From: Leifsonia sp. PS1209
GTDB taxonomy: Bacteria; Actinomycetota; Actinomycetes; Actinomycetales; Microbacteriaceae
Length of the DNA stretch: 64,000 bases
Reading direction: 5' to 3'
Assembly: GCF_012317045.1 (NCBI RefSeq)
Contig: NZ_CP051154.1
Span: forward strand, 3,968,001 to 4,032,000
Positions 3,526 to 29,365 of this stretch are shown piece after piece. How positions within the stretch are numbered: the first letter of the stretch is position 1; each line of letters begins with the position of its first letter. Made by a program: the position numbers and the translations under genes. The notes under the pieces were generated by a model. That model searched no databases. It saw only the letters and a program-made list of their open reading frames with translations, and was not told the DNA's origin.

Positions 3526-3547
3526 CGGCTACCCCTTTCAATATCTC

Positions 3548-3582: not shown

Positions 3583-3669
3583 ACCCTACTGTCTGCCCTG
3601 TTGCACGCGCAACCTGGCGTGGGTCGTCGGCATCGGTGCAGTTCTCGCCTCGCGCCGCCCCCAAACGCC

Positions 3670-3697
3670 GAACCCCCTCGCTCTCGCAAGGGGGTTC
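3670..3697 (-). terminator. Hairpin terminator after the GH3 gene
   Basis: A nine-pair perfect stem GAACCCCCT/AGGGGGTTC encloses a ten-base loop, 25 bases beyond the GH3 stop codon and upstream of the decarboxylase promoter on the same strand. No long T tract follows, as is common for actinobacterial terminators. Confidence 0.6.
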
Positions 3698-3721
3698 AGG
3701 CCGGTCCGGCAGCGGTGTACG

Positions 3722-6025: not shown

Positions 6026-6085
6026 GATTCTCCTTCGAAGTGATCTGCCTGTGTGCGAATACCATACACCGCTCGGTTTCCTGAA

Positions 6086-6149
6086 AATCGAGTCCGACGT
6101 TGTTCACGGGCGGATGCGGCGTGTCGCGTGAATAGCTTCGGACTCGATT
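6086..6149 (-). terminator. Long nested hairpin at the stop of the large membrane protein gene
   Basis: Perfect 12-base arms AATCGAGTCCGA (6086-6097) and TCGGACTCGATT (6138-6149) flank a 5/5 internal loop and a second perfect six-base stem TTCACG/CGTGAA (6103-6108, 6127-6132). On the minus strand the structure is followed by ATTTTC. The first arm includes the last bases of the upstream stop codon. It probably terminates that gene and insulates the GH3 gene. Confidence 0.55.
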
Positions 6150-8991: not shown

Positions 8992-9050
8992 CCCATCGTT
9001 GGTGACGGGCGAACACTACTCCGGGTGAGGTTTTGTCGTCTATAGCGGCG

Positions 9051-12239: not shown

Positions 12240-13211
12240 TCAGTGCGAGCCGGTGGGCACGCGCATGCGGTCGAGGAACGACCAATCGCCCGCCGGGTTG
12301 CGACGGTCGACGAAGTCGATGAGGTCCTGCGGTCGCGGCGCGCTGGCCGCGCCGCCGAGACCGGTGACGGAGATGGTCGCGCTGAGCGACGCGAAGCGGA
12401 GGCGGGTGCGTAGGTCCCAGTCGTGGCCGAGTGCTGCCATGAACGTGGCGACGAAGACGTCGCCCGCTCCCGTCGGGTCGACGGCCGCGACCGGCACGGC
12501 CTCCACCTCGACGATCTCCCCCGCCGCGGAATCGATGGCGACGACGCCGCGCGGCCCCCTGGTGACGACGGCGAGCGGCACGTGCCTCGCCAGTGCTTTG
12601 GCCGCCGCCACCGCGTCGTCGGTGCGCGTGTACTGCATCGCCTCCGCGTCGTTGGGCACGAACACGTCCACCTCGGAGAGGCGGCGAAGCACATCGCCCG
12701 ACCAGTCCCCCGAGGCATCCCAGCCGACGCCGCCGACCACCGTGGTGCCCGCTGCGCGCATCCTGCCGACCCAGGCCGGCAGTTCGTGGGCGACGCCGAC
12801 GTGGGTCGCCCCGATGGGGCCGAGGTCGTCGGGGACATCCTGGTGCCCGAGCTCCACCTGGTAGGTGATGAAGGAGCGATCCTCCGGGGTGGTGAGCGAC
12901 ACGGTGACAGGGCTCTGGTGTCCGGCGATGCGTTCGAGCAGGCGGGTGTCGAGGCCGGGCTCGTCGTCGAGCATCCCGTGGATGTGCTCGCCGAGCGGGT
13001 CGTCGCCGAGGCGCGACAGCAGCAGAGTGGATGCGCCGGCCCGCGCAGCAGCGACCGCCCGGTTCGCAACGCCTCCCGCCGTGATGGTGAAGGCGTCCGC
13101 GTAGACCTCTGCTCCCACGGCGGGGACGTCCACGCCGGAGAAGACGACGTCGCAGAAGATCTCGCCGGCGAACAGGAGCTCGGCTCCCTGGTGCAGCGGT
13201 CGTTCGATCAC
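12240..13211 (-). CDS. PfkB-family carbohydrate kinase
   Basis: A 323-residue ribokinase-like enzyme that phosphorylates a sugar or nucleoside with ATP. The N-terminal GGVANRAVAAARAG motif and the C-terminal DPTGAGDVFVATF signature are present, with D251 as the expected catalytic base. The GTG start at 13211 is chosen because GAAGAGGAG precedes it at good spacing. It is the first gene of the kinase-ABC importer operon, transcribed away from the deoR-GH4 genes. Inferred role: phosphorylation of the imported sugar, either monosaccharide after cleavage or intact disaccharide ahead of the GH4 enzyme. Confidence 0.9.
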   Translation of the reverse strand: MIERPLHQGAELLFAGEIFCDVVFSGVDVPAVGAEVYADAFTITAGGVANRAVAAARAGASTLLLSRLGDDPLGEHIHGMLDDEPGLDTRLLERIAGHQSPVTVSLTTPEDRSFITYQVELGHQDVPDDLGPIGATHVGVAHELPAWVGRMRAAGTTVVGGVGWDASGDWSGDVLRRLSEVDVFVPNDAEAMQYTRTDDAVAAAKALARHVPLAVVTRGPRGVVAIDSAAGEIVEVEAVPVAAVDPTGAGDVFVATFMAALGHDWDLRTRLRFASLSATISVTGLGGAASAPRPQDLIDFVDRRNPAGDWSFLDRMRVPTGSH

Positions 13212-13354
13212 GGGCTCTCCTCTTCGTTGCGGATCCGCGGGGTTCGACACTCGATGCTCGACTTTGCGTGACTATGCGACGGAACCGCTGATATTCAGCA
13301 AGCTTGAGCAGCGAGTGTTTCGATTACATTACCTGCGTGACGCACTTTTGTTAA

Positions 13355-13418
13355 GTTTGCGTATCTGAGTATTTTCTCTGCTCGTGTTTGCGCGACTCTG
13401 CTCATCTGTGAGTAGAGT
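13355..13418. promoter_or_regulatory. Putative DeoR-family operator region between kinase and deoR
   Basis: The divergent intergenic region holds a direct repeat GTTTGCG at 13355-13361 and 13385-13391, and an imperfect dyad ACTCTGCTCA/TGAGTAGAGT at 13395-13418 just ahead of the deoR ATG. DeoR-type repressors bind repeated sites near their own promoters. The region is AT-rich relative to its flanks, as expected for the two divergent promoters. Confidence 0.45.
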
Positions 13419-13424
13419 GTCACC

Positions 13425-14201
13425 ATGATTCTTCGCGAACGGCAGAACCGCATCCTGTCTGCGCTGCGGACGGACGGCTCCGCCTCCGTGCGCGAGCTGG
13501 CCGAAGCACTGGCCGTCAGCGAGTCGACCATCCGCAGAGACCTGGAGCTGCTCGACCGCAACGGCGAGCTGACCCGCACCTACGGCGGGGCGGTCCTCAC
13601 GCCCGGCGCCACCGTGGAGGACCACGGCCGCAGCGCGGAGGAGGGCACCTTCGACGAGACGACGGACGCCGACCTCAAGCGCCGCATGGCGGAGGCGGCG
13701 GCCGCGATGGTCACCGACGGCAGCGTCATCATCCTGGACATCGGCACGACCACCCCACTGGTCGCGCGTCTCCTGCGCGGCAGGGACATCACCGTCATCA
13801 CCTCCAGCCTCGCCGTCTTCGACGAGCTGCGCGACGACGACGCCGTGCGCCTGGTGCTGCTCGGCGGCGTCGTCCGCCGCAACTACCGCACCCTGGTCGG
13901 CTCGCTCGCCGAGCTCGCCCTCAGCCAGGTGAGCGCCGACATCGTGTTCCTCTCCTGCACGGGCGTGCGGGCGAACGGGCACGTCGTGGACAACATGGCC
14001 GTCGAGGCGCCGATCAAGCAGTCGATGATCGCCGCCTCCGACCGTGTGGTGCTGCTCGCCTCCGAAGCCAAGTTCCCCGGGACAGGAGCCCTGCGGCTCT
14101 GCTCCCTCACCGAAGTGGATGCGCTGGTCACCACGACCGGCGCTCCGGAAGAAACGCTCGCACTGTGCCGGAACGCCGGCGGAGAGGTCACTGTCGTATG
14201 A
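13425..14201 (+). CDS. DeoR/GlpR-family transcriptional repressor
   Basis: A 258-residue regulator. The N-terminal winged helix-turn-helix is clear (residues about 5-55, with RQNRILSALRTDGSASVREL and SESTIRRDLELLDRNGEL), and the C-terminal DeoR sensor domain includes IILDIGTTT and the LLGGVVRRN segment typical of sugar-phosphate-sensing members. Its stop overlaps the GH4 start by four bases (ATGA), so the regulator and phospho-glycosidase are made together. It probably also controls the divergent kinase-importer operon, with a sugar phosphate as inducer; that is family-based inference. Confidence 0.93.
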   Translation: MILRERQNRILSALRTDGSASVRELAEALAVSESTIRRDLELLDRNGELTRTYGGAVLTPGATVEDHGRSAEEGTFDETTDADLKRRMAEAAAAMVTDGSVIILDIGTTTPLVARLLRGRDITVITSSLAVFDELRDDDAVRLVLLGGVVRRNYRTLVGSLAELALSQVSADIVFLSCTGVRANGHVVDNMAVEAPIKQSMIAASDRVVLLASEAKFPGTGALRLCSLTEVDALVTTTGAPEETLALCRNAGGEVTVV

Positions 14202-15556
14202 AGCTCTGCATCCTCGGAGGCGGCGGATTCCGCACGCCGTACGTCTACCAGGCCCTCCTGCGGGACACCGGTTCACCGCGCGTCGAAGAGGTGGCCCTCT
14301 ACGACGTGGACGAGAACCGCCTGCACACGATGGTCGCCATCCTCACCGAGCTGGCCGCCGGGTTCCCCGACGCGCCGCGCCTCGTGCCGACCACCGACCT
14401 GCACCGCGCCGTCGAGAGCAGCGACTTCATCTTCGCCGCCCTCCGCGTCGGCGGCCTGGAGGGACGCCGCTGCGACGAGCACGTCGCCCTCGACCTCAAC
14501 GTCCTCGGCCAGGAGACCACCGGCCCTGGCGGACTCGCATACGCCATCCGCACCGTGCCCGTGATGGTCGAGGCGGCGAAGGCGATCAAGGACCTCGCCC
14601 CCAACGCGTACGTGATGAACTTCACCAACCCGGCCGGCATCATCACCGAGGCCATGCAGTCGGTGCTCGGCGACCGCGTGCTCGGCATCTGCGACACCCC
14701 GTCCGGCCTCGGCCGTCGTGTCGCGGGCCTGCTCGGCCTCGACCACACGCGCGTGCAGATGGACTACGTCGGCCTCAACCACCTGGGCTGGATGCGCCGC
14801 CTCCTCTACGACGGCCGCGACGTGCTCCCCGAGCTGCTGGCCGACGACGCCCTGCTCGGCGCGCTCGAGGAGGGTCACGTGTTCGGGGCGGACTGGATCC
14901 GCAACCTCGGCTCCGTGCCCAACGAGTACCTGTACTACTACTACTTCAACCGCGACGCCGTGCAGACGATCCGGGAGTCCGGCAAGACCCGCGGCGACTT
15001 CCTCGCCGACTCGCAGAGCGCCTTCTACACGAAGGCGGCCGACGCCGGCCAGGGGGTCGCCGAGCTGTGGCGCACCACCGTCGAGCGTCGCAGCGCCTCG
15101 TACATGGCCGAAGCGAAGGGCGGCACCCAGGATGCGCCGACCCACGTCAAGGAGCGCGAGCAGGACCCGTCGCACCAGGGATACGCGGGCGTCGCCCTCG
15201 GCGTGATGGCCGCGATCAGCCGCAACGAGCGCCAGACGATGATCCTCAACGTGCGCAACAACGGCACCATCCACGGGCTGCCGGACGACGCGGTCGTCGA
15301 GGTGCCCACCCTGGTGGACGCGAACGGCGTGCATCCGCTGACCACCGACCAGCCCGACCTGCACCAGGTGGGCCTGATGTCGCTGGTGAAGTCGGTGGAA
15401 CGGCACACCATCGCCGCGGCGCTCACCGGCTCGAAGGAAGAGGCGGTGGCGGCGTTCGCCCTGCATCCCCTGGTCGACAGCGTGACCGTCGCCCGCTCGC
15501 TCGTCGCCGGCTACATCGAGCGCATCCCGGAGGTGGCGGCGGTCCTCACGAAGTGA
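14198..15556 (+). CDS. GH4 family 6-phospho-beta-glucosidase-like glycosidase
   Basis: A 452-residue NAD- and metal-dependent glycosidase. The Rossmann start MKLCILGGGGFRTPYV is followed by GQETTGPGG, NFTNPAGIITEAM, the metal cysteine C165 in GICDTP and the metal histidine H195 in GLNHLGW. These agree with the LicH/CelF branch, which cleaves 6-phosphorylated beta-glucosides by an oxidation-elimination mechanism. The start at 14198 (overlapping deoR by ATGA) removes an unsupported 11-residue extension. No PTS gene is nearby; an ABC importer and PfkB-type kinase are. The 3' end overlaps the convergent HAD gene by 11 bases. Substrate configuration is not certain. Confidence 0.9.
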   Translation: MKLCILGGGGFRTPYVYQALLRDTGSPRVEEVALYDVDENRLHTMVAILTELAAGFPDAPRLVPTTDLHRAVESSDFIFAALRVGGLEGRRCDEHVALDLNVLGQETTGPGGLAYAIRTVPVMVEAAKAIKDLAPNAYVMNFTNPAGIITEAMQSVLGDRVLGICDTPSGLGRRVAGLLGLDHTRVQMDYVGLNHLGWMRRLLYDGRDVLPELLADDALLGALEEGHVFGADWIRNLGSVPNEYLYYYYFNRDAVQTIRESGKTRGDFLADSQSAFYTKAADAGQGVAELWRTTVERRSASYMAEAKGGTQDAPTHVKEREQDPSHQGYAGVALGVMAAISRNERQTMILNVRNNGTIHGLPDDAVVEVPTLVDANGVHPLTTDQPDLHQVGLMSLVKSVERHTIAAALTGSKEEAVAAFALHPLVDSVTVARSLVAGYIERIPEVAAVLTK

Positions 15557-16289
15557 CGAGCAGTCCTTCGACGATGGCCGCCGTCTCCGACGGATCGGAC
15601 ACCGACCTGGTGGGGATTCCGAGCGCGATCACGGGATAGTCGTTGCCGTCCGGGTCCAGCCGGTCTCCGATGAAGAGCATGTCGGAGAAGGGGATCCCGG
15701 TCAGCGACGAGAGCTTGGTCATCCCGTACGCCTTGTCCACGCCGTGGCGGGTGATGTCGATGCTGGTCGAGCCTCCTGCGCGCACCTCCAGGCCGGGAAG
15801 CCGGGACTGGACGGCGGCGCGGAGCAGGTTCCTCCGCGTCCCGTCGCGGTCCCAGGCGGCCTTCTTGTCGATGGGCGCCAGCTGACCGAGCCCGGAGAAC
15901 GTGATCTGCGAGCCGCGATCCTCCAGCACGGGACCCCAAGTGTCCTTCTCCCAGAGCCCGAGGCGCGACGCCTCTTCCTGGACCGTCGCGAGCGTTTGCG
16001 TCCGCTCCGTGTCCGTCAGGTTCTCGGCGTACTGCAGTCTCCATCCCGCTCCGTCCCAGCGGTAGTAGCGCGTGCCGCAGGTGGGCATGAGGTGGAGCCG
16101 GTCGAGCCGTGCCGACCCTGGCAGCTGGGAGAGCAGCTGGTCGCGGAACTGCTCGAACCTCCCTCCCGAGATCACGCACACCTCGGAGACGTCGAGCAGG
16201 CTGGTGAGCAGCTCGATCATCCGGGGAGCGGCGGGCGACTTGGACGGGGCGAGGGTGTCGTCGAGATCGAAGGCGACGAGGCGGGGCAT
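15546..16289 (-). CDS. HAD-IIB hydrolase, phosphomannomutase-like
   Basis: A 247-residue HAD protein with motif I DLDDTLAPSK, motif II in CVISGGRFEQFRDQL, and motif IV GDRLDPDGND. The cap region and its order (EDRGSQITFSGLGQ, then ...PIDKKAAWDRDGTRRNLL, then GGSTSIDITRHGVDKAYGM) resemble eukaryotic-type phosphomannomutase (PMM) by eye, and the length is right for that family. PMM interconverts mannose 1- and 6-phosphate; a sugar-phosphate phosphatase is the alternative. It is the last gene of the glycan operon; its ATG shares one base with the LacI stop (TGATG). With a GH130 enzyme in the same operon, mannose 1-phosphate is a plausible substrate. Confidence 0.82.
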   Translation of the reverse strand: MPRLVAFDLDDTLAPSKSPAAPRMIELLTSLLDVSEVCVISGGRFEQFRDQLLSQLPGSARLDRLHLMPTCGTRYYRWDGAGWRLQYAENLTDTERTQTLATVQEEASRLGLWEKDTWGPVLEDRGSQITFSGLGQLAPIDKKAAWDRDGTRRNLLRAAVQSRLPGLEVRAGGSTSIDITRHGVDKAYGMTKLSSLTGIPFSDMLFIGDRLDPDGNDYPVIALGIPTRSVSDPSETAAIVEGLLVTS

Positions 16290-17392
16290 CAGCGGGACCT
16301 TTCGTGGGGGGTGGTGGATGGTGGCGCCGTGCTGGCGCGCACGACGAGTTCTGCGGGCGGGAGCTCGACCTCGGCGACGGGATCCCCGCCCAGCAGGGCG
16401 ACCAGACGGAGGCCGCATGCCCGACCCCAGGCGTATGCGTCGCGTCGCACGCTGGTGATGGCGGGCTCCGTCACGAGCGCGAACGAGCTGTCGTCGAGGC
16501 TGATGACGGAGAGACTCTCCGGCACCCGCATCCCCCGGCGCCCGATCACGCCCATCCCGGCCGAAGCCAGGAGTCCGGTGTCGTAGAGGATCCCGGTGGG
16601 CGGTGCCTTGAACCCGAGCAGCCGGTCGGTGGCCGTCCGCGCAGAGGCCGGCGACGGGTCGGTGAGGCCGATCACGCGCGCGGACAGCCCGAGCGCACGC
16701 GATTCGTCGGCGAACGCCTTCTGCCGTCGTGCCGACCGCAGCGTTCCGGTCTCGGCGACGATGGCGATGCGCTCGTGCCCGGCCCCGGCCAGGTGCCGCA
16801 CCGCCTGGGCTGTGCCCTCCCACTCGTCCGCGTGCGCCACCACGTGCTCCGCGACGAGGAACGGGAGACCGAGGGCCGTCAGAGCGGCCGGACGGTCGTC
16901 GGAGGTGCGCAGATCGACGATCAGGATGCCGTCGACCTGCGACTCGCGCACGAACCGGTCGTACGCACCCGTCTCCTCCGCGGCCGATGAGACCACCCGG
17001 ACCACGAGGGCGGTGTCCGTCGCAGCGAGCGCCGTGCCGACCCCGTCGATGAACCCGGCGAGGTCGGAGCAGGCGCCAGGGCTGACCCCGTGCCGTCCGA
17101 CCACCAGGCCGACGCTCCTCGGGCGGTCCAGGGAGAGCGCCCGCGCTCGCGCGTTCGGCTTCCAGCCGAGGTCGTCCGCCGCCCGGAGGATGCGCTCCGT
17201 CGTCGCCTCGCTGAGGCCGCGGCGTCCGTTGAAGACGAACGACACGGCGCTCTTGGAGACCCGTGCTCGCGCTGCGACGTCCGAGATGGTGACGCGGCTC
17301 CTGCCCGCCTCCTGGACGACCCGCTGGGCGGGAACCGGACCCGAACCGGTTCCCGCCTGAAGGCCGGCGCCTGCTATCCGGCGACGGCCCAT
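16289..17392 (-). CDS. LacI-family transcriptional regulator within the PL8 operon
   Basis: A 367-residue regulator. The helix-turn-helix (VTISDVAARARVSKSAVSFV) begins only at residue 33, because the nearest usable in-frame start is the ATG at 17392, inside the 3' end of the lyase gene (19-base overlap). LacI proteins normally begin a few residues before this helix, so a 30-residue leader is unusual. Hinge and periplasmic-binding-like sensor follow (GLVVGRHG, VDGILIVDLRT, AGHERIAIVAETG). It is embedded between PL8 and the PMM-like gene, so it probably autoregulates the operon in response to an oligosaccharide. Confidence 0.88.
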   Translation of the reverse strand: MGRRRIAGAGLQAGTGSGPVPAQRVVQEAGRSRVTISDVAARARVSKSAVSFVFNGRRGLSEATTERILRAADDLGWKPNARARALSLDRPRSVGLVVGRHGVSPGACSDLAGFIDGVGTALAATDTALVVRVVSSAAEETGAYDRFVRESQVDGILIVDLRTSDDRPAALTALGLPFLVAEHVVAHADEWEGTAQAVRHLAGAGHERIAIVAETGTLRSARRQKAFADESRALGLSARVIGLTDPSPASARTATDRLLGFKAPPTGILYDTGLLASAGMGVIGRRGMRVPESLSVISLDDSSFALVTEPAITSVRRDAYAWGRACGLRLVALLGGDPVAEVELPPAELVVRASTAPPSTTPHERSR

Positions 17393-20300
17393 GGGCCGTT
17401 CGCGGAGCCAGGAGCCTGGTTGCGGGAGTACCACTTGGCGACGTAGACGACGCCCTTGTAGCTCGCCTTCTCCCCGGCGTTGAAGATGCGCGACGGAGTC
17501 CACAGCGCCGTGCCGTCCGGCGCGGTGGCGATCTCCTGCCACGGGCCGGTCGCCCCACCCGGGACATCCGAGCGGCTGTACCAGGAGGCCAGGTACGTCT
17601 TGCCCTGATAGACGACCGTTTCCCCGCCGTTGAAGACCCGGGATGCCGTCCACGCCGTCGCGCCGTCCTCGGTCAGCGCGAGCTCCTGCCAGGCGCCGGT
17701 GTTGCTTGCGCCGGGCTGCTCGCCCTTGGTCGACCATCCCGCCGTGTACACCGACCCGCGATAGCTGACGATGTCCCCGGTCTTGTACGTCGTGGTCTTG
17801 CTCCAGGCGGCCGGGAGGGTGACCGTGACGACGACGGTCGTGCTGGCGCCCTCCACCGTGTCGCTGCCGGAGTACGTCGCCGTCAGCGTGTGGTCGCCTG
17901 CCGCGAGCCCAGAGGGGAGGGTGAACGTGGCGACGCCGTCACGCAGCGGCGCGACACCTCGATCCTTCGACCCCTCCGTCAGCGCCACCTGACCGCTGAC
18001 CGGGAGCGGGGACGACACCGTGACGGTGACGGTCGCGGCGGTTCCCCATTTCGCGGTGACGGCCGGCGCACTGATGCTCGCCGTGGCGCGGAGCCCGTCG
18101 ATCGCGGCCTTCAGCGCTGCGGCGCGGCCGTCGATAGAGGCCTGGGTGGCATCGGCGGCCTTGAGCGTCGCCTTCGCGGCTTCCAGGGCGGGCAGAACGG
18201 GCGCCCAGGTCGCGGCGGCGTACTGCGTGCTGTCGAGGCCGGCGGCGCGGTCGACCAATGCCTGCAGCGCACTCCGGTCGACCGCCACCGTGACGGGGCA
18301 CCGGACGAACTCGTCGCCAGCGGCGTGCACCAGCACGATGGAGGTGCTTCCCGGCGCCCCTGTCGTGAGGGCGACAGCGATGGTCCCGTCCGCAGCGGGC
18401 TGCGGCGCGGCCGAGACCGCCGCGACCGACGGGTCGAGCGAATACGCCGTGAAGGAGTCCCCCGCGTCGAGCGGGCTGATCTTCGCCGTCATCGTGGCCG
18501 TGCTCTCGCGGTCCGCCGTCACAGGAGCCTGGCAGGTCAGGCTGTAGCCGCCGTAGACCTCGAACTCCCAGATGTTGAGCCCGTACTTGGTCGCCGGCGA
18601 GCCGATCACGCGGACGTAGCGCGCCTCCGCCGTCGGGAAGTCCGTCGTGTCACGACGGTGATCCGCGGTGCCGGAGTTCTGCACGTGGGCGAGCTGGGTC
18701 CAGTCGGTACCGTTCACCGAGCCCTCGAGCTGGTAGTCGGTCGAGTTGCCCGACTCCCACTCCACCACCGCTTGAGACACCGGCCGCACAGCGCCGAGGT
18801 CCACCTGCAGCCAGTTGCGGTTGGTGTACGGAGCAGTGCCGGTCGGCCGCGCCGACGACCACTTGGTGGTCTTCGAGCCGTCGGTGGCGGCGGTGGGCTG
18901 GACGTTCGCCAGGTTGTTGTAGACGCTGTCCGCCGTGGTCGGCGTGCCCGCGGCCAGGTTCACCCGCCCGCCGGCGGTCGGCGCCGCGGCGATGGCGCCG
19001 TCCCCGAACACCTCGAACTCCCACAGCGAGACCCCGTAGGTGGTCAGCGCCCGCTTCACCGTCTGCATCCGGACGTAGCGACCGGTCGCGTTCAGCGTCA
19101 CGAGGTCCGTGCCGCCGTCGCTCCCCGCTGCCGGGGTGGCGTATGCATCGCGCCAGGTGCGGCCGTCGTCCGAGACCTGGATCTTGTACTGGCTGGCGTA
19201 CGACGCCTCCCAGAACAACCGTGCTGCACCGATCTTCCGCACGCTGCCGAGGTCGACCTGCAGCCAGGACGCATCCGGTGTGCCCGTCCTGTCGGCGATC
19301 CACCTGGTGGTCGCGTTCCCGTCCGTCGCGCTCGCCGGACTCGTTCCGTCGGACGCCGTGGTGGGGGCGCCGAGGGCGAGGTTGACGCGGGAGAGAGCGG
19401 AGAACTCCCCGACCGAGTACGACCCGCCGCCCGGCCCGTCCAGGGGCAGGATGCGGACGAAGTTCGCCGCGGTGGCTGGGAAGTCGACGTGCTGGTGTCC
19501 ACCCGTCCCGTTCTGGACGAGCTTCTGATCGGTCCAGGTCGTGCCGTCCAGCGAGGTCTGGACGAGGAACCGGGTGGCGTAGTCGCTTCCCCAGTCGACG
19601 TCGGCGCCCATGGCGTACGAGCCGGCGGTCAGCCGCTGGCGGAGCCACGGCGCTGCGCCGGACGACTGCCACGTCGTCGCGGTGTCCCCATCGCCTGCCA
19701 GCGACGGGCCGTGACCGGCCACAGACCCGCTCGCGGTGTACGGCGAGCCGGCCGAGTCGTCGGCGGCGAGCGGCTCCGTGACGGTCTTGCCCAGGTTCGC
19801 CCCTGTGCCGAGCACGAAGGATCCGTGGGACGCCGACGCTCCGCCGCTCAGGGTCACATCCACGAGGATCCCGGGCTGGCTGGGGTTCGACAGGCTCACC
19901 ACCGGGGTCCCGGAGGACTCGTCGAGCATCACGATGCTCGGCTGGCTCACCGAGAGGGTGCGGCCGTCGCCGAGGTCGAGCGAACCGGCCCGGTAGAAGG
20001 TCACCATCGTCCGCTTGAGGCCGGCGTGCTGGACCGCCTGCACCGACGAATCGTTGCGGAGGATCTTCACGGCGGGGTTCGCCGCGTACGCCTCGGTCTG
20101 CGCGGCCGACTTGGCGGGGAGCACGATGTACTCGTATCCGGCGTTGCTCGGCTTCACCCCGTGGTCGAAGTACAGCGAGAACGCGTCGTGGCTCTCCGGC
20201 TGGTCACCGTAGTAGCTGCCCGTCTGCGTCTTGTCGGAGACGGTCACCGCCTGGTCGGACGGGAACACGTAGCCGACCTTGTCGTTGTACGCCCACGACG

Positions 20301-21960
20301 GGTCGCCGACGACTCTGCCGTCCGTGCCGGATTCGACCTTCTGCCCCTCCACCGACGCGTTGCCCTTCGCGGCGACCTGGTTGACCGTGGTGTGGATGGG
20401 CGCAGCCGACGTCGACTGGATGCCGGCCCCGAGCGCCACCATCTCGTCGTCGAAGTAGTAGTAGCTCTTCTGCGCCTGGGTGCCGACCCTGTCCAGGCTC
20501 TCCACCGTCGCGCCGTACATGCCGTCCGAGACGCCGCCGGTGAACGCCCCGCCGTTGGCCGAGCGGCCGTCCTTGCCGAGGGTGGTCTCCTTCACGTACG
20601 GCACGGTGGTTCCGGGGTAGTGGAACCAGTCGAATGCCGGACCGAGGTCGGTGTACTCCTTGTTGGTCACCTGGATGGCCGTGGTGCCTGTGCGGTTCCA
20701 GACGACCTCGTTGCCGACGTCCTTGCGGATGGTGGACCGGTACTCGCTGCCCACGGTGCGGCTGGAGTTCAGACCGGTCACGATGCCGTAGTCCGCCCGC
20801 TGGTGCGACGAGAACTCCGACCGCCAGAAGTATGTGTCGCCGATCGCGCCGTTGCCGGCGGTCTTGCCCCGGATGTTGTCCGCCATCTGGCGGTACGCGG
20901 TCGCGTAGAGCGGGTCGGTGCGCGCCATCCTGTCCAGTGGATCCAGGAAGACGGCCGCGTAGCTCGTCACGCCGTCGACGGTCGTGGCCGGGCGGTAGAG
21001 GAGGTACAGCATCTCGATCTCGCCGCGGATCAGCCAGCGGGTGCCGTCGACGATGTAGAACGCGATGGTGTCCAGCTGGTCGCGGGTGAAGGCCAGGCTC
21101 GTACCGCGGGCGGAGTCCGCCCACATCGCCACCATCGTGAACAGCGCCATGCCGTAGCCCTCGCTGTAGAGCTGCGCGCCGTGCGCCCAGAACGTCGCAT
21201 CCGGCTGCACGGCCTCCTGCACGGTGCCGGAGTCGTCCACCGCCACCGTCTGCACCATCGTGGCGAAGCCCGCGGTGATCGCGGCGGCATCCCGGGTGGC
21301 GAGCGCCTTGTAGAGGTAGTCGGAGGTGCGCCAGGCGCCGTTCGCGCCTGCTGGATCGAGCTTGCCCTGGTTGTGCTTGATCGCCAGCGCCGCCGCATCC
21401 GGGCTCAGCGCGTCACCGACGAAGATGGAGATGCGGCCCATGGCGATGGACTCGCCGATCTCGGTCTCCCACCAGTTGGTGTTCCCCGGATTCACCGCGT
21501 CCCAGTACGCGAGCGCCCGCTGCTCCGCGTCGATCAGCTTCGCGTCTCCGTGGCCCGTCGCCGATGGGTCGCGGTACGCCTGAGCGATCGCGACCATCCG
21601 GTAGAGCGCCTTGTACGCATCCCAGGTCTTGCCGTTCGCCGAGCTCGTCGTGTCCTGGTAGTTCACGTCCGACCAGGAGCCGTCCGCGTTCTGCGATGCG
21701 ACGTAGTCGAGCGCGTTCGAGGTCTGCGCGAGGTAGATGCCGTTGGCGATCTGCACCTCGTCGCCCTGGCTCAGGTAGTAGTCCTGCAATCGGTTGACGA
21801 TCGTGGAGACGTCCGTCTCCAGATCCGCCGCCTGTGCGGGCGCGGCCAGGCCGGCGATGCTCAGCAGGGCGACGACGAGGGATGCGACCAGCGCCGACAG
21901 GCGCGAGCGGCGGACGAGCGAGAGACGTGGAGCGTTCGGGTCTTCAGGATGACGCATCAT
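17374..21960 (-). CDS. Secreted multidomain polysaccharide lyase family 8 (PL8)
   Basis: A 1528-residue exported lyase. A signal peptide ends near AQA-A44. The PL8 catalytic domain has NTNWWETEIGESIAMGR (160-176), N207, H260 and Y269; the H-to-Y spacing of nine equals that of pneumococcal hyaluronate lyase. The central and C-terminal PL8 sandwich domains reach about residue 730. Three discoidin-like (F5/8C) modules follow at about 740-857, 859-987 and 1000-1140, then an Ig-like region, a FIVAR-like helical piece, another Ig-like domain and three CBM5/12-type chitin-binding repeats to the end. PL8 enzymes cleave beside uronic acids (hyaluronan, chondroitin, xanthan) by beta-elimination; the exact polymer is not readable. 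The start has an AAGGAG box; ATGs at 21960 and 21957 are both possible. Confidence 0.92.
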   Translation of the reverse strand: MMRHPEDPNAPRLSLVRRSRLSALVASLVVALLSIAGLAAPAQAADLETDVSTIVNRLQDYYLSQGDEVQIANGIYLAQTSNALDYVASQNADGSWSDVNYQDTTSSANGKTWDAYKALYRMVAIAQAYRDPSATGHGDAKLIDAEQRALAYWDAVNPGNTNWWETEIGESIAMGRISIFVGDALSPDAAALAIKHNQGKLDPAGANGAWRTSDYLYKALATRDAAAITAGFATMVQTVAVDDSGTVQEAVQPDATFWAHGAQLYSEGYGMALFTMVAMWADSARGTSLAFTRDQLDTIAFYIVDGTRWLIRGEIEMLYLLYRPATTVDGVTSYAAVFLDPLDRMARTDPLYATAYRQMADNIRGKTAGNGAIGDTYFWRSEFSSHQRADYGIVTGLNSSRTVGSEYRSTIRKDVGNEVVWNRTGTTAIQVTNKEYTDLGPAFDWFHYPGTTVPYVKETTLGKDGRSANGGAFTGGVSDGMYGATVESLDRVGTQAQKSYYYFDDEMVALGAGIQSTSAAPIHTTVNQVAAKGNASVEGQKVESGTDGRVVGDPSWAYNDKVGYVFPSDQAVTVSDKTQTGSYYGDQPESHDAFSLYFDHGVKPSNAGYEYIVLPAKSAAQTEAYAANPAVKILRNDSSVQAVQHAGLKRTMVTFYRAGSLDLGDGRTLSVSQPSIVMLDESSGTPVVSLSNPSQPGILVDVTLSGGASASHGSFVLGTGANLGKTVTEPLAADDSAGSPYTASGSVAGHGPSLAGDGDTATTWQSSGAAPWLRQRLTAGSYAMGADVDWGSDYATRFLVQTSLDGTTWTDQKLVQNGTGGHQHVDFPATAANFVRILPLDGPGGGSYSVGEFSALSRVNLALGAPTTASDGTSPASATDGNATTRWIADRTGTPDASWLQVDLGSVRKIGAARLFWEASYASQYKIQVSDDGRTWRDAYATPAAGSDGGTDLVTLNATGRYVRMQTVKRALTTYGVSLWEFEVFGDGAIAAAPTAGGRVNLAAGTPTTADSVYNNLANVQPTAATDGSKTTKWSSARPTGTAPYTNRNWLQVDLGAVRPVSQAVVEWESGNSTDYQLEGSVNGTDWTQLAHVQNSGTADHRRDTTDFPTAEARYVRVIGSPATKYGLNIWEFEVYGGYSLTCQAPVTADRESTATMTAKISPLDAGDSFTAYSLDPSVAAVSAAPQPAADGTIAVALTTGAPGSTSIVLVHAAGDEFVRCPVTVAVDRSALQALVDRAAGLDSTQYAAATWAPVLPALEAAKATLKAADATQASIDGRAAALKAAIDGLRATASISAPAVTAKWGTAATVTVTVSSPLPVSGQVALTEGSKDRGVAPLRDGVATFTLPSGLAAGDHTLTATYSGSDTVEGASTTVVVTVTLPAAWSKTTTYKTGDIVSYRGSVYTAGWSTKGEQPGASNTGAWQELALTEDGATAWTASRVFNGGETVVYQGKTYLASWYSRSDVPGGATGPWQEIATAPDGTALWTPSRIFNAGEKASYKGVVYVAKWYSRNQAPGSANGPWAVAG

Positions 21961-21999
21961 TGCGCAGGACTCCTTGTTCGCTGAGGTGGGGGTTGGGGG

Positions 22000-23094
22000 T
22001 CAGGGGGTGCGGACCAGGCGTGCGACCGAGATCCGGGTGTCGGCCGCACCGTAGAAGACGAAGTGCTCCCCGCCGATCTTCTCGATCGCGGTGGGGAAGA
22101 GCACGTTCGCCACCGTGCCAGCGGTCTCGTCCGCTGTCTCGGGGGTCATCAGGGGCTCGCTGGTCCTGGCGAGGACCCGCGACGGGTCGTCGGCGTCGAG
22201 CAGCATGGCGCCGACGACGTAGCGCACGGTGAATGCCTGCGGCACGAACGAGCCGCCCGGCAGGTCGCCGGTGACGCCGTGGTGCAGCAGCAGCCAGCCC
22301 TCCGGCACGCGGAGCGGAGCGGGGCCCGCGCCGATCTTCAGCGCCTCCCAGTCGTACTCCGGGCCGGCGACGAACCGGTGGCCGGCCGGCCTGGTCAGCG
22401 CCGTCAGGTCGCGAACGGCCTCGTCGACGGGGATGTACGAGATCCAGATGCTGGCGCGCGCGTCCGTCACGCCGGCAGGCAGCGGTGGCTGCTCCTCGGG
22501 GCGCACGAAGCCGAAGTCCCACATCGGCCGGTGCAGCATCGCGAAGCTGGGGCGGCCATCCGGGTCGGAGACGATCTCGGGGAAGAAGACGACGTCTTTG
22601 TTCGGGAACAGGTTGAGGTCGGTGTCGAGCGCGTCGTCGTAAGCGAACTGGATCGGGCCGAGTCTGCGCCAGGTCACACCGTCGGTCGAGACGGCGAGCG
22701 CCGGTTTCGGGCCGAGCGGGCCGAACGCCACGTACGACATCACGTGGATGCCGAGATCCTTCAGCGGGGTGATGCGCGGGTCCTCGACGCCGCCGTGACC
22801 CGTGCCGTGCTCCCAGCCGCGGTCCGCCTCCAGCGCGACCTCCAGCCCGTCGACTGCGGTCGGCACGCCGTCGGTCACCACGACCCTGGCCCGGCCGATG
22901 CTGGACACGTTGTGCTCGGCCACCAGGCGGGGGAAGAGGTGCACGGTCCCATCCGGGTCCTGCACCGTCGCCGGGTTGAGCACGCCGTCGACCTGGCGCG
23001 GATCTGCCGGGTCCGGCTCCATGACGACGCCGGCGCGCTCGAGGACATACGGGACGGTGACAGCGGTGCTGACGGCGGGGACGGTGGTGGACAA
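22000..23094 (-). CDS. GH130 family beta-mannoside phosphorylase/hydrolase
   Basis: A 364-residue cytoplasmic five-bladed-propeller enzyme. Family motifs include LNPATVQDPDG, GHGGVEDPRITPL (conserved aspartate of the active site), NLFPNKDVVFFPE, LKIGAGPAPLRV and GWLLLHHGVTGD. GH130 members act on beta-linked mannose, most as phosphorylases yielding alpha-mannose 1-phosphate, some as hydrolases. The supported start is a TTG at 23094 behind GAGAGG; the first ATG would remove 24 residues. It lies between the importer permease and the PL8 gene. Together with the PMM-like HAD protein downstream it suggests intracellular processing of a mannose-containing oligosaccharide. Confidence 0.88.
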   Translation of the reverse strand: MSTTVPAVSTAVTVPYVLERAGVVMEPDPADPRQVDGVLNPATVQDPDGTVHLFPRLVAEHNVSSIGRARVVVTDGVPTAVDGLEVALEADRGWEHGTGHGGVEDPRITPLKDLGIHVMSYVAFGPLGPKPALAVSTDGVTWRRLGPIQFAYDDALDTDLNLFPNKDVVFFPEIVSDPDGRPSFAMLHRPMWDFGFVRPEEQPPLPAGVTDARASIWISYIPVDEAVRDLTALTRPAGHRFVAGPEYDWEALKIGAGPAPLRVPEGWLLLHHGVTGDLPGGSFVPQAFTVRYVVGAMLLDADDPSRVLARTSEPLMTPETADETAGTVANVLFPTAIEKIGGEHFVFYGAADTRISVARLVRTP

Positions 23095-23134
23095 CAGGAC
23101 CTCTCTTGCTGGGTAGGTGGTGCGGGAAACGGGG

Positions 23135-24007
23135 TCAGCCCTTGACGGCGCCGACGACGCCGTTGACCAGGTAGCGCTGGATGAAGATGTAGCCGACGAT
23201 CAACGGAGCGGCGACGATGAACGTCGCGGCCGCGAGGAGCGGCCACTGGTTGCCGTACGTGCCCTTGAACGCGTAGAGGCCGACGGTCACCGGGAACTTG
23301 GTGGGGTCGGCGAGCAGGACGGTCGCGAGGATGATCTCGTTCCAGATCCACACCGCCTGCAGGATGAACACGGTCACCAGGGCCGGGCGGGCCAGCGGCA
23401 GGATGAACGTGAAGAGGTAGCGCCAGTAGCCCACCCCATCCATCGCGGCGGCCTCGTCGAGCTCGCGCGGGATCGACTTCACGAATCCGCTCAGCAGCAG
23501 CGGGCCGACTCCGACGCCGACGCCGACCAGCAGGATGTAGCCGAGTTGGGTGTCGTACAGCCCGAGCCGCAGGAGCAGCTGGAACTGGGTGATCAGGGCG
23601 TTCGGCAGGAACAGCACGAGCACGAACACGATGGACCAGTACTTGGCGCCGCGCACGTAGCCGCGGGCGACGGGGAACGCCAGCACCAGCGTGAGCAGGG
23701 TGCCGATCGCCGATCCCGCTGCGGTGTAGATCACGCTGTTCAGGATGTACGCGCCGAAGTCGCCCTTCTCCCACGCGGTGGCGAAGTTGCTCCACTGCGG
23801 GTCGGAGACCAGGCCGACGGGGTTCGCCACGAACTCCGCCTGCGATTTCAGCGCGGTGTTGAGCAGGTAGAGCAGCGGGAACAGGAACACGATCATCAGG
23901 ATGAGCGCGCAGATGTACGCGCCGACCGGGATGCGCCGCCGACGGCGCACCGTCGTCTCGCTGGAGCGCTCCCTCGTCGCCGGCAGCGATTCGGTGGACG
24001 TGGTCAT
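23135..24007 (-). CDS. Carbohydrate ABC transporter permease (MalG type)
   Basis: A 290-residue permease with an Arg-rich N-terminal tail, six helices and the EAA loop ELDEAAAMDGVGYWRYLFTF. It is the second channel subunit of the glycan importer. The ATG at 24007 shares one base with the stop of the partner permease (TGATG), and the GH130 gene follows after 40 bases. As in the first importer locus, no ATPase gene accompanies it, so a shared MsiK-like ATPase is likely. Confidence 0.92.
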   Translation of the reverse strand: MTTSTESLPATRERSSETTVRRRRRIPVGAYICALILMIVFLFPLLYLLNTALKSQAEFVANPVGLVSDPQWSNFATAWEKGDFGAYILNSVIYTAAGSAIGTLLTLVLAFPVARGYVRGAKYWSIVFVLVLFLPNALITQFQLLLRLGLYDTQLGYILLVGVGVGVGPLLLSGFVKSIPRELDEAAAMDGVGYWRYLFTFILPLARPALVTVFILQAVWIWNEIILATVLLADPTKFPVTVGLYAFKGTYGNQWPLLAAATFIVAAPLIVGYIFIQRYLVNGVVGAVKG

Positions 24008-24918
24008 CACAGTTTCGCCTCTCGTCGGCGCAGAATCGTCAGGGCGATGATCGAGACGACGGCCACCAGCACGAACTGGACCATCGAGACCGCCGCCGCG
24101 TAGCCCTGCGACTGCGACAGCGTCGTGCCGGATGCTCCGCCGAAGCCCTGCACGTAGACCAGGAGCGAGAGCACCTGGGTGGAGCGGTTGTTCGGACCGC
24201 TGAGCACGTAGATCAGCTGGTAGCTCTGCAGGGCGTTGACGATGCCGAGGAGCACGTTCGCCGTGATCGACGGAGCGAGCAGGGGCACCGTGACGCTCCG
24301 GAAACGCTGCCAGCCGTTCGCGCCGTCGATCTCGGCCGCTTCGTTCAGCTCCTCCGGAACCGCCTGGAGCCCGGAGAGGAAGATGATGACGGAGACGCCG
24401 AGCACCATCCACACCTGCACGACGATCACGAGCGTCAGCGCGAGACGAGGGTCGCCGAAGAACGCCGACTTGCCGCCGAAGAGGTCGAGCAGCGACGCGG
24501 CGGGCCCGCCGCTCACATTGAAGATCAGGGACCAGACGAGGCCGGTCACGGTCACGCCCAGGATGGTGGGCATGAACACCACGGCACGGTAGAAGTTGCG
24601 GCCCCTGAGCCGGCGGTTCAGCAGCACAGCGATGGCCAGGGCGACCACGATCTGCACCACGGTGCTCGCGACGGCGAAGATGATGGTGTTCCTCAGCGCG
24701 TTCGCGCTGTCCGCCCATTTGGCCGGCGAGAAGAAGTCGACGTAGTTCTGCAGGCCGACGAAGTTGATCGGGAGGCCGGGCAGACCACGGAGGTCGGTGA
24801 AGGATGCGACGAGCACGCCGATCGCCGGCACGAAGCCGAAGATGCCGAGCAGCAGCATCCCGAGCCCGAAGGTGACCCGGACCGGCGTGCGGCGGGGGAA
24901 GGGGAATGATTCAGTCAT
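24007..24918 (-). CDS. Carbohydrate ABC transporter permease (MalF/UgpA type)
   Basis: A 303-residue permease with six helices and the EAA loop ELNEAAEIDGANGWQRFRSV. The ATG at 24918, behind GAGAG, is preferred to a farther in-frame start because it places the basic FPFPRRTPVRV head directly before helix 1. It follows the binding-protein gene by 61 bases and overlaps the next permease by one base. Together the three genes import an oligosaccharide, presumably a product of the secreted PL8 lyase. Confidence 0.92.
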   Translation of the reverse strand: MTESFPFPRRTPVRVTFGLGMLLLGIFGFVPAIGVLVASFTDLRGLPGLPINFVGLQNYVDFFSPAKWADSANALRNTIIFAVASTVVQIVVALAIAVLLNRRLRGRNFYRAVVFMPTILGVTVTGLVWSLIFNVSGGPAASLLDLFGGKSAFFGDPRLALTLVIVVQVWMVLGVSVIIFLSGLQAVPEELNEAAEIDGANGWQRFRSVTVPLLAPSITANVLLGIVNALQSYQLIYVLSGPNNRSTQVLSLLVYVQGFGGASGTTLSQSQGYAAAVSMVQFVLVAVVSIIALTILRRREAKL

Positions 24919-24979
24919 GGTGTCTCTCGACGCCCGGGGCGGGTGGCCGGCACTGCTGCCGGCCACCCTCCCGGCAGCG

Positions 24980-26311
24980 TCATCCGGCCGCCGACCACGC
25001 CTTCTGAGCAGCCTCGGCGGCTTGCTCAGGCGTCGCGGAACCGAGCGGGCTCAGGGCGGGGTAGTTGAACGGGAAGACCGCATCCTGACCGGCCTTGTTG
25101 TTGGCGAACCAGACCTGGTCCCACGCCGGCTCGTACGACTTCGTGTACTCGCCGATCGACTGGAGGAACGCGCTGGTGGATGCGTCCGGCTGAGCCGATG
25201 AGAAGCCCGACTTGCTGAGGAACAGCTCGTAGTTGGTCTTGTCGGAGAAGAACTTCAGCCAGGCGAGCGCCGCCGTCTTGTTCTTGGCGGAGGTCGGGAC
25301 GGCGAGCTGGAGCTCGGTCTTCCCGTTCAGCAGCGCGTTGTCCGATGCCTTGTCCGATCCGGGGAAGGGGAAGTACCCGTAGTCGAACGACTTCGCGACC
25401 GCCGCGTCGAGCGTCGGCTGATCCCAGGTTCCGTCGACCGTCATCGCGAAGTCGCCCGCCGCGAACCCGGCAGGGATGGAGGCGTAGTCGGCTCCCGCCG
25501 CGCCCTGCTGCGAGTTCTGCAGCACGAATTCGGTCTGCTGCAGCACCTTGACCTCTGTCGGGTCGGTGAGCTTGGCCTTGTTCGTCCAGAGTTCCTTCGC
25601 CAGCTGCTGCTTGTCGGCGACCGTCGGGTAGAGCGACGCGACCGAGGCGAGCATCGGGAGACCGGCCGGCCAGCTGTCCTTGCCGCCCATCCCGAACGGG
25701 GTGACGCCCTTGGCCTTGAGCGCGTCGACGACGGCCGTGAACTCGCTCCAGGTGGTGGGGACCTTCAGCCCGTTGTCCGCGAAGATCTTCTTGTTGTAGA
25801 AGACGCCCGTGTAGTAGCTGACGCCGGTCGGCACCGCGTACTGCTTGCCGCCGATGGCCTGCGCGTCGAGCAGGCTCGGCGTGTACTTCTTCAGGAACGC
25901 CTCGTCGGTGAGGTCGACGAGGGCGCCGGCCTTGGCCAGTCGCGCGTCGTCCGTCGCGGCGTCCTTGGCGTACGAGGGCGTCTCCATGAGGCCCTTCACC
26001 ACGAACAGGTCGAGGTTGCCCGCGGTGAGGCGGGAGGACTTGGTGGCCGGATAGTTGTCGTTGGAGACAGTGGAGAAGACCACGTCCACCTTCGGGTACT
26101 TCTTCTCGAATGCGTCGTTGACCGCGCGGAATCCGGCGTCGGTGGCGTCGCTGCTCGAGACGAGGAGCTGGAGCTTGCCGCTCGGCTCACCGCCGTTCGT
26201 GTCTCCGGTGCCGCTGGAGCAGGCCGCCAGCCCGCCGATCGTGGCCGCCGCAACGACGCCGGCGATGATCCGCCGGCCGAGTGTCGTGCTGCGCAACCTC
26301 TTCGTCGCCAT
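24980..26311 (-). CDS. Sugar ABC transporter substrate-binding lipoprotein of the PL8 operon
   Basis: A 443-residue extracellular solute-binding protein. The ATG at 26311 sits behind GAGGAGA and gives a lipoprotein signal with lipobox LAAC; the acylated cysteine is residue 31. The mature part is a family 1 sugar-binding fold, with a segment NGGEPSGKLQLLVSSSDAT at the start. It is the first gene of the seven-gene glycan operon. Two LacI-type palindromes lie 60-110 bases upstream, so it should be induced by the operon's oligosaccharide. Ligand unknown. Confidence 0.92.
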   Translation of the reverse strand: MATKRLRSTTLGRRIIAGVVAAATIGGLAACSSGTGDTNGGEPSGKLQLLVSSSDATDAGFRAVNDAFEKKYPKVDVVFSTVSNDNYPATKSSRLTAGNLDLFVVKGLMETPSYAKDAATDDARLAKAGALVDLTDEAFLKKYTPSLLDAQAIGGKQYAVPTGVSYYTGVFYNKKIFADNGLKVPTTWSEFTAVVDALKAKGVTPFGMGGKDSWPAGLPMLASVASLYPTVADKQQLAKELWTNKAKLTDPTEVKVLQQTEFVLQNSQQGAAGADYASIPAGFAAGDFAMTVDGTWDQPTLDAAVAKSFDYGYFPFPGSDKASDNALLNGKTELQLAVPTSAKNKTAALAWLKFFSDKTNYELFLSKSGFSSAQPDASTSAFLQSIGEYTKSYEPAWDQVWFANNKAGQDAVFPFNYPALSPLGSATPEQAAEAAQKAWSAAG

Positions 26312-26371
26312 GTGATGTCTCCTCATCGAGTTCGGGTCGGTGCAGGTGCAGGTGCAGTGCTTCGGGTGGGT

Positions 26372-26420
26372 CCAAAACGTTTCGGATCGCACACCGTGCG
26401 TTTACCGAAACGTTTCGGTA
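26372..26420. promoter_or_regulatory. Two LacI-type operators upstream of the glycan operon
   Basis: TACCGAAACGTTTCGGTA at 26403-26420 is a perfect 18-base palindrome; CCAAAACGTTTCGG at 26372-26385 is a second near-perfect copy. Centre-to-centre distance is about 33 bases, or three helical turns. The AAACGTTT core is characteristic of LacI/GalR-family operators. The sites lie between the lacI-type gene and the binding-protein gene, so one or both of the locus's LacI proteins probably repress from here. Confidence 0.8.
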
Positions 26421-26453
26421 GCTCATGCTGTCATGCTTGAGTGCGCGAAGACA

Positions 26454-26469
26454 ACCCCCATTCGGGGGT
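26454..26469 (-). terminator. Short hairpin after the upstream lacI gene
   Basis: A six-pair stem ACCCCC/GGGGGT with loop ATTC lies 27 bases beyond the LacI stop on the minus strand and is followed there by TGTCTT. It would separate the lacI transcript from the operon it precedes. The stem is short, so readthrough is possible. Confidence 0.4.
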
Positions 26470-26495
26470 CATGCGGATGGAGCCCTGCCGAGGGG

Positions 26496-27521
26496 TCAGC
26501 GTCCGGCGGGAGCCGGCCCGGTGGAGTCCCTGGCGATGAAGGCCGCATCCGAGATGCGCACGTCGTCGACCGCGCCGTCGGCGATCAGGTCGATGAGCAT
26601 CCTGCCGGACTCCCTGCCGAGCTCCCGCGGGCTGGTGTGCACGGTCGTCAGCGACGGCCGCACGTATGTGCCGAGGCGGATGTCGTCGAATCCGGCGACC
26701 GACAGCTCCCCCGGAACGTCGACGCCCAGGTGCTGCGCCTGGGCGATGAGCCCGATGGCGGACAGGTCGTTTGCGCACACCACGGCCGTCGGTGGCTCAG
26801 CGAGTTCGAGAAGTGCGGACGCGGCGGAGGCGCCGGCGAGGTAGGTGAAGTCGCCGGGGACGACGGGGCCGGGCGTCAGCCCGAACTCGCGCATCGCGGT
26901 CAGCCACGCGCCCTCGCGCTGAGCGGAGTGGATCATGTCCTGCCGGCCGCCGACGTACGCGACACGGCGATGACCACGCTCCACGAGGTGCTCCACCGTG
27001 GCCCGGATGCCCGCATCCGGATCCTGCCTGACCGCCGGGATGGGGAAGTCGGCTCCCGGATTGATCGCGACCGCCGGCAGGCCGAGCTTTTCGATGAGCG
27101 CGATGCGCGGGTCGTCGATTTCCAGGTCGTTGACCAGGACGCCGTCGACCCGGCGGTCGGCCGCGAACTTCTCGTAGCGCTGCAGCACCTGGTCGGACTC
27201 CGCGGTGATCTGCAGCACCAGCGCGTATCCGCGGGGGTCGATGGCGTCTTCGATCCCGCCGATGAAGCCGCCGAAGAACGGGTCGAGCTCCAGCACATCC
27301 GGATCCCGGTGCAGCACGAGGCCGACGGTGTACGCGCGGCGGCCGGACAGGCTCTTGCCGCGGAGCGACGGCACGAATCCGAGCTCGGCGGCGATCCGGA
27401 CGATGCGGTCGCGGGTGACGTCCGACACCCCGGGACGTCCGTTGAGCGCGCTCGAGACGGAGCTGATCGCCACGCCGGCCTTGTTCGCCACGTCGACGAT
27501 GGTCACACGCTCATCTGCCAC
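26496..27521 (-). CDS. LacI-family transcriptional regulator upstream of the glycan operon
   Basis: A 341-residue regulator from the GTG at 27521; an ATG at 27560 would add 13 residues. The helix-turn-helix is VTIVDVANKAGVAISSVSSA and the hinge segment is SLRGKSLSGRRAYTVGLVLH. The sensor domain contains FFGGFIGGIEDAIDPRGYAL, RRVDGVLVNDLEIDDPR and GHRRVAYVGGRQDMIHSAQR. It is encoded directly upstream of the binding-protein gene on the same strand, with the two AAACGTTT operators between them. It is the best candidate repressor of the locus. A second LacI protein inside the operon makes double control possible. Confidence 0.92.
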   Translation of the reverse strand: MADERVTIVDVANKAGVAISSVSSALNGRPGVSDVTRDRIVRIAAELGFVPSLRGKSLSGRRAYTVGLVLHRDPDVLELDPFFGGFIGGIEDAIDPRGYALVLQITAESDQVLQRYEKFAADRRVDGVLVNDLEIDDPRIALIEKLGLPAVAINPGADFPIPAVRQDPDAGIRATVEHLVERGHRRVAYVGGRQDMIHSAQREGAWLTAMREFGLTPGPVVPGDFTYLAGASAASALLELAEPPTAVVCANDLSAIGLIAQAQHLGVDVPGELSVAGFDDIRLGTYVRPSLTTVHTSPRELGRESGRMLIDLIADGAVDDVRISDAAFIARDSTGPAPAGR

Positions 27522-27593
27522 CAGTGCACCCCATTTCCGCGCTCGCCGAGCGACGGACATCCTATGCCGAAACCGGCACGCCAGGATTGCGTG

Positions 27594-29311: not shown

Positions 29312-29365
29312 AATCTGGAAGTTTAGGTGTTTCGCGTGCCGGGTGACAGCTGCTGGACTGCCGGA

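Follow-up and report, generated by a model that had tools for sequence, protein, structure and literature searches.

A seven-gene operon of Leifsonia sp. PS1209 that may couple a secreted PL8 lyase to GH130 mannoside phosphorolysis

We analysed a stretch of 64,000 nucleotides (the window) from the chromosome of the soil-type actinobacterium Leifsonia sp. PS1209 (contig NZ_CP051154.1, positions 3,968,001 to 4,032,000), which contains a seven-gene operon encoding, among others, a secreted polysaccharide lyase of family PL8 and a GH130 enzyme. This operon probably serves, under LacI control, the catabolism of a polysaccharide containing both uronate and β-mannose, a reading to which we give a probability of about 0.6. 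It is based on gene order, an operator-like site and gene linkage, all taken from sequence, and the chain of enzymes was derived from family knowledge together with this linkage. The host replicon is a single-contig chromosome of 4.09 Mb, and the nearest named relatives of the GH130 and PL8 proteins belong to Leifsonia. All seven genes lie on the minus strand, from 26311 to 15546, in the order proposed by an earlier sequence-only reading of the window (binding protein, two permeases, GH130, PL8, LacI and HAD), and their families were assigned by matches to Pfam and NCBIfam profiles (Table 1). Where inspected, intergenic gaps were short or start and stop codons overlapped, as between the two permease genes (at 24007) and between the LacI and HAD genes (at 16289). 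The earlier gene list had missed a second LacI gene upstream of the operon (LacI_up, as distinct from LacI_dn within it), as well as two palindromes ahead of the binding-protein gene.

GH130 loci were collected in one scan, from which the best 80 of 339 relatives were taken; the presence of genes was counted by tblastn, and greedy calling of open reading frames (ORFs) misses or merges some genes. Near GH130, a PL8 gene was found in 13 loci, a HAD gene in 8 and both in 5. The PL8 loci belong to six genera (Leifsonia, 2; Microbacterium, 3; Streptomyces, 3; Cellulosimicrobium, 3; Mangrovihabitans, 1; Cellulomonas, 1) and exhibit several gene arrangements. Five of them contain the HAD gene, four contain genes for a phosphomannomutase (PMM) and/or a mannose-phosphate isomerase (PMI), and four contain none of these in the sequence covered. 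A phosphoglucomutase (PGM)/PMM gene followed by a PMI gene stands directly after GH130 in L059, L062, L073 and L079, the order in L073 being GH130, PMM, PMI, PL8; the gene directly after GH130 is that of PMI in L039 and L082, and that of HAD in L007 and L008. Ten PGM/PMM matches were obtained, including six in Streptomyces loci at least 1.6 kb downstream, which were not counted as linked, and ten PMI matches, including those of L011, L015 and L021, located further away. The HAD gene was inside the GH130 cluster in seven loci, and in the eighth (L047) it forms a divergent pair with PMI that shares an operator; none of these eight loci has a PGM/PMM match.

Linkage was also apparent among 394 genomes of the class, in which the PL8 clade was rare (2 genomes, E ≤ 1e-60) and the GH130 clade was present in 24 (E ≤ 1e-80); both PL8-positive genomes were among these 24, the two surveys being taken as one draw from their matching handles. 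The only other PL8-positive genome (G270), which lies outside the 80 loci, carries PL8 and GH130 1.7 kb apart, separated by a phosphomannomutase gene, in the order substrate-binding protein, permease, permease, GH130, phosphomannomutase, PL8.

Between the LacI_up gene and the binding-protein gene lie the palindrome ACCGAAACGTTTCGGT and a second, less perfect copy. With up to two mismatches, the 14-mer CCGAAACGTTTCGG had three matches in the window versus 0.19 expected, the third (496-509) being unrelated, and the exact 16-mer, with the same tolerance, occurred at one place only in the 4.09 Mb genome. The transporters of the 80 loci are of two types. Judged by the binding protein, 21 loci have that of the window (type 1), and most of the remaining loci have a second type. 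Sites with at most one mismatch to CCGAAACGTTTCGG numbered 26 and were present in all 21 type 1 loci but in 0 of the 59 others, which include L010 and L012, two loci with type 1 permeases whose sequence stops short of the operator region. The type 1 list was defined by a binding-protein match of more than 200 bits and was compiled after the first operator matches were known; as a control, palindromes were permuted in 20 draws, 17 of them distinct, and none had more than one match. The site was located ahead of the binding-protein gene in 22 of the 26 cases. Sites were also observed between the divergent HAD and PMI genes (L047), about 0.4 kb ahead of GH130 (L014), between LacI and a gene of protein cluster C26 (L007) and ahead of a C55-like gene (L008), with a weaker one ahead of PMI (L015). 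Since CCGAAACGTTTCGG-type sites are missing from those PL8 loci that have the second transporter type, the operator ties GH130, HAD and PMI together, and includes PL8 only in the Leifsonia loci. A LacI homolog was present in 73 of the 80 GH130 loci, counted by matches that do not separate LacI_up from LacI_dn, and a LacI gene adjoins HAD also in the Microbacterium loci L031, L063 and L074. LacI_up is the likely repressor of the operon. A promoter scan predicted no promoter and five terminator-like sites, all on the opposite strand, and an Rfam search of 13000-30000 gave zero matches. Overall, gene linkage and the shared operator-like site back a single, co-regulated glycan route; the sequence-only reading had put forward a dedicated one.

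The GH130 protein looks like a phosphorylase of the GH130_NC type. Its residues N40, D105 and D352 align with Asn28, Asp98 and Asp287 of Teth514_1789 (the mannose-binding Asn, the catalytic Asp and the distal Asp, respectively), which were matched after correcting the numbering of the PDB chain by an offset of 11, derived in this analysis. K253, in the motif KIGAGP, aligns with the lysine of the KIG motif of phosphorylases, where the hydrolase-type 4onz reads LLTECGP. In phosphorylases, basic residues that bind phosphate take the place of two glutamates of the hydrolases, and H188-R189 is by its motif a candidate pair of this kind. K166 lies in an NKD motif resembling that of Teth514_1788 (compare Lys199 of BT3780, a lysine used as a marker of β-1,2 specificity), HMMER having left both columns unaligned. 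A structure was predicted with a pLDDT of 86; in VIA-align, β-1,2 enzymes scored 3 to 4.5 Z units above β-1,4 enzymes against this model. A profile search ranked 7fip first, and NF052550 (β-1,2-mannobiose phosphorylase) was the best of three listed GH130 models in NCBIfam, at 105.6 bits, under its cut-off of 450. Foldseek, run with the predicted structure, intermixed β-1,2 and β-1,4 enzymes from rank 7, and a single-sequence search spoke for the other linkage, its best match being the β-1,4 enzyme TM1225 (86 bits versus 74 for Teth514_1789). The model is nearest to β-1,2-mannoside phosphorylases, and the linkage cleaved is probably β-1,2 or related. Another GH130 of this clade is encoded in the host genome (G000:C1:1663732-1664787, L131; 58% identity), together with the second transporter type, a LacI gene and a C8-like protein.

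Among the PL8 domains, PF08124 (56.5 bits), PF02278 (160.7 bits) and PF02884 (60.6 bits) each exceeded their Pfam cut-off, and accessory modules comprised three F5/8 (discoidin) stretches, an Ig-like module and a CBM5/12; the signal peptide was called by eye. Residues N207, H260, Y269, R312 and E406, which we take to have catalytic roles, align with the catalytic Asn, His, Tyr, Arg and Glu of chondroitinase AC. Among 14 clade members, including that of the window, the His, Tyr, Arg and Glu were kept in all 14 and the Asn in 12, the region being missing in the other two. The nearest solved PL8 structure was the Pedobacter chondroitinase AC 1cb8, at 221-224 bits, versus about 95 bits or less for xanthan lyases; the NCBIfam chondroitinase-AC model NF043001 was not reached (274.3 bits, cut-off 1000). 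The clade comprises 136 proteins at E ≤ 1e-50. Among the 120 matches listed, from a search restricted to 0.55-1.75 times the query length, the named ones were from Actinobacteria plus one Clostridiaceae metagenome genome, all 120 had discoidin domains, and the database name, where it gave a function, was often 'chondroitin AC lyase'. The Streptomyces members of L052, L055 and L080 (729-771 amino acids) lack the discoidin tail, a search for which gave no match in L052 and L055 and a short match at another place in L080. The window protein is the sole PL8 match in the host genome, and across 150 Microbacteriaceae genomes any PL8 match (1e-20) was found in only three, namely its own and two distant ones with 35-37% identity. 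From its sequence, it belongs to an uncharacterised clade nearest to chondroitinase AC.

The HAD protein exceeded the PF03332 cut-off and carries the DxDxT motif as D8-L-D10-D-T. It had been called PMM-like on the order of the motifs FEQF, ITF...GG and GDRLDPDGND; all three were found in the translation, but the closest PDB relative is not a PMM: the α-phosphoglucomutase 4bnd of L. lactis matched over the full length with 160 bits, versus 46 bits for the best phosphomannomutase. A Ser-x-Asp agrees with PMM at its place and differs from 4bnd. By sequence, the protein is phosphohexomutase-like, with the sugar left unspecified. In genome searches, run with the sequence lacking the initial Met, it was the sole match of its kind in the host (E ≤ 0.001), which also has four classical PGM/PMM matches. 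Relatives occurred in 59 of 120 Microbacteriaceae genomes, commonly outside GH130 loci, and no GH130 match was found in 29 unlinked HAD loci fetched with about 1.5 kb of sequence to either side (L118 with less). Neighbours of these, from ten neighbour proteins scanned, included recR, an aspartokinase-like gene, mqo and glycosyltransferases.

Taken together, these features suggest the following route. The secreted PL8 lyase, held to its target by the discoidin and CBM5/12 modules, would cut the polymer through an elimination reaction at a (1->4)-linked uronate, and the ATP-binding cassette (ABC) system would take up the fragments; no ATPase gene is present in the operon, and the ATPase is presumably encoded elsewhere. 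GH130 would then phosphorolyse the β-mannoside to α-mannose 1-phosphate, the HAD protein would convert this to mannose 6-phosphate, and a type I isomerase, whose gene lies outside the operon, would yield fructose 6-phosphate. The sequence-only reading had likewise passed mannose 1-phosphate from GH130 to the HAD protein; the phosphorylase features and the linked mutase and isomerase genes favour this step, but the affinity of the HAD protein to α-phosphoglucomutase does not. That reading contained no step for the unsaturated uronate, which would need enzymatic removal before GH130 could act from the non-reducing end. There is no GH88 (PF07470) match in the genome, nor is GH88 found in the described actinobacterial xanthan regions (PMC12772297), so an unrecognised enzyme may remove the unsaturated uronate. 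Among 61 selected flanking ORFs of PL8 loci, no lyase-partner enzyme was seen in the 25 most frequent of 67 Pfam families.

Several observations weigh against the proposed route. The missing GH88 leaves the PL8 product without a known next enzyme, and the substrate of PL8 cannot be read from its sequence. In the sequence covered, 67 of the 80 GH130 loci have no PL8, and the PL8 loci L052, L055, L066 and L080 have no HAD, PMM or PMI gene. The one type I PMI match in the genome is far from the operon. In the HAD protein, as in 4bnd, the Arg of the cap-domain SPIGR motif of PMMs, read here as Arg141 of PMM2, is replaced by Gln; this Gln was present in 28 of 28 compared rows (10 from the operon and the GH130 loci, plus 18 chosen from the 29 unlinked relatives), and GH130-linked and unlinked proteins were the same at the compared positions where covered, the linked ones bearing no mark of a mannose enzyme.

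Two other identities of the lyase have to be considered. It could be a xanthan lyase removing terminal β-mannose, with the rest of the operon using side-chain mannose, and xanthan had been among the substrates suggested by the sequence-only reading. According to PMC12772297, the xanthan regions of Microbacterium XT11 and Paenarthrobacter ilicis 6C resemble the window in having PL8 and an ABC transporter and no GH88, and that of P. ilicis further shares LacI and itself holds manA; moreover, GH130 includes a β-1,4-mannosyl-glucuronate phosphorylase (PMC8950772). Xanthan nevertheless seems highly improbable. The described regions contain GH9, GH38 and GH3, and GH130 is absent from the paper's main text (PMC12772297), whereas the host genome has neither a GH9 (PF00759) nor a GH88 match, GH38 and GH3 not having been searched there. 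The scores with xanthan lyases are weak compared with chondroitinase AC, and, as a xanthan lyase releases free mannose, GH130 would have nothing to do. A chondroitin or hyaluronan lyase, in a glycosaminoglycan route to which GH130 is unrelated, agrees with the nearest structure and the frequent database name, as the window protein shares with 1cb8 the PL8 domains and the aligned catalytic residues. It differs from 1cb8 in its distant sequence, its extra discoidin and CBM5/12 modules and its mannose gene context; with the chondroitinase-AC model far from reached, no GH88 match in the genome and linked genes that are those of mannose phosphates, this identity is very unlikely.

Doubts may likewise be raised about the two intracellular enzymes. 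If GH130 were a β-mannosidase, no mannose 1-phosphate would be formed; we consider this quite improbable, as the KIGAGP lysine of phosphorylases is kept in place of the hydrolase-type sequence and mutase and isomerase genes travel with GH130. Phosphorylases with the same Glu as the window enzyme also exist, as reported in PMC4264767. The HAD protein could be a general α-phosphoglucomutase acting on glucose 1-phosphate and placed in the operon by chance neighbourhood, as its best match and the unrelated genes beside its relatives elsewhere would allow. Its position inside seven GH130 clusters, the operator-sharing pair with PMI in L047 and the lack of PGM/PMM matches in all eight HAD loci make such a general role rather unlikely.

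Among described systems, the Thermoanaerobacter Teth514_1788/1789 cluster of β-1,2-mannoside phosphorylases has been suggested to supply GDP-mannose synthesis, without mention of a lyase (PMC4264767); compared with it, the operon adds lyase, HAD mutase and LacI genes. The α-phosphoglucomutase of L. lactis, PgmH (4bnd), is a full-length relative of the HAD protein but is named for glucose phosphate, whereas a role of the latter is suggested by its mannose-phosphate neighbours. The gene set (GH130 and PL8 with LacI, PMI, PMM and ABC genes) was not found described in the open literature, in a search mostly outside subscription journals. The component families are known, the lyase itself being uncharacterised.

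Table 1. Coordinates of the operon and of its upstream elements, numbered from the first nucleotide of the window.
Feature	Position	Strand	Evidence
LacI-family regulator LacI_up	26496-27560	-	PF00356 and PF13377 above cut-off
Operator-like palindromes	26405-26418 (exact); 26372-26385 (one mismatch)	undefined	CCGAAACGTTTCGG
ABC substrate-binding protein, lipoprotein-like (by eye)	24980-26311	-	PF01547, 106.8 bits; ATG at 26311
ABC permease 1	24007-24918	-	PF00528
ABC permease 2	23135-24007	-	PF00528
GH130 mannoside phosphorylase (predicted), TTG start	22000-23094	-	PF04041, 97.9 bits (cut-off 26)
Secreted PL8 lyase, 1528 amino acids	17374-21960	-	PF08124, PF02278 and PF02884 above cut-off
Second LacI-family regulator LacI_dn	16289-17293	-	PF00356 and PF13377
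HAD-IIB sugar-phosphate mutase-like protein (α-PGM/PMM type)	15546-16289	-	PF03332, 29 bits (cut-off 22.4); 4bnd, 160 bits

Beyond the operon, a DeoR regulator gene and a GH4-family glycosidase gene (13425-15556, plus strand) are convergent with the HAD gene, sharing about 11 bases with its 3' end. This GH4 gene (14165-15556) was considered as a remover of the uronate and rejected: the genes called past HAD in the Leifsonia loci L005 and L006 differ in size or place, GH4 itself not having been searched there.

In other loci, the GH130 core is paired with secreted proteins of clusters C8, C26 and C55, which have no known Pfam enzyme family. Cluster C8 (14 loci; L036:11327-13546) is a secreted-looking protein adjoining GH130 without a Pfam family, and the one PDB match of its profile was 7tem, a putative exported protein. 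Cluster C26 (L007:1550-5365, L008, L013, L059 and L073) is a large secreted-looking protein; in the members scanned, the sole enzyme match was a GH78-type six-hairpin domain in L008 (22.3 bits, below the cut-off of 24.5), its profile matched nothing in the PDB up to E = 1, and its structure was poorly predicted (mean pLDDT 53.9). C26 is a candidate new glycoside hydrolase family. We also observed GH38 and GH92 α-mannosidase genes between the permeases and GH130 in L014 (Galbitalea; 3206-9513), and, in several Streptomyces loci, a gene of the GH13 α-amylase family downstream of GH130 (cluster C9; L061:11154-12827).

More broadly, and more tentatively, the PL8 clade, opening a polymer in which β-mannose adjoins uronate, and energy-saving GH130_NC phosphorolysis, supplying mannose 1-phosphate, might form a new pathway across several actinobacterial families, closed by either the HAD protein or a phosphomannomutase with an isomerase, and the pairings with C8, C26 and C55 suggest that several polymer-cutting families may feed it. 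If the proposed route is right, PL8 lyases can operate together with mannose phosphorolysis, and the loci point to secreted enzyme families as yet unnamed. It would also offer a handle for substrate discovery in a PL8 clade often labelled as chondroitin AC lyases: given the regulator and its operator-like site, the glycan that frees the repressor would be a product of the polymer.

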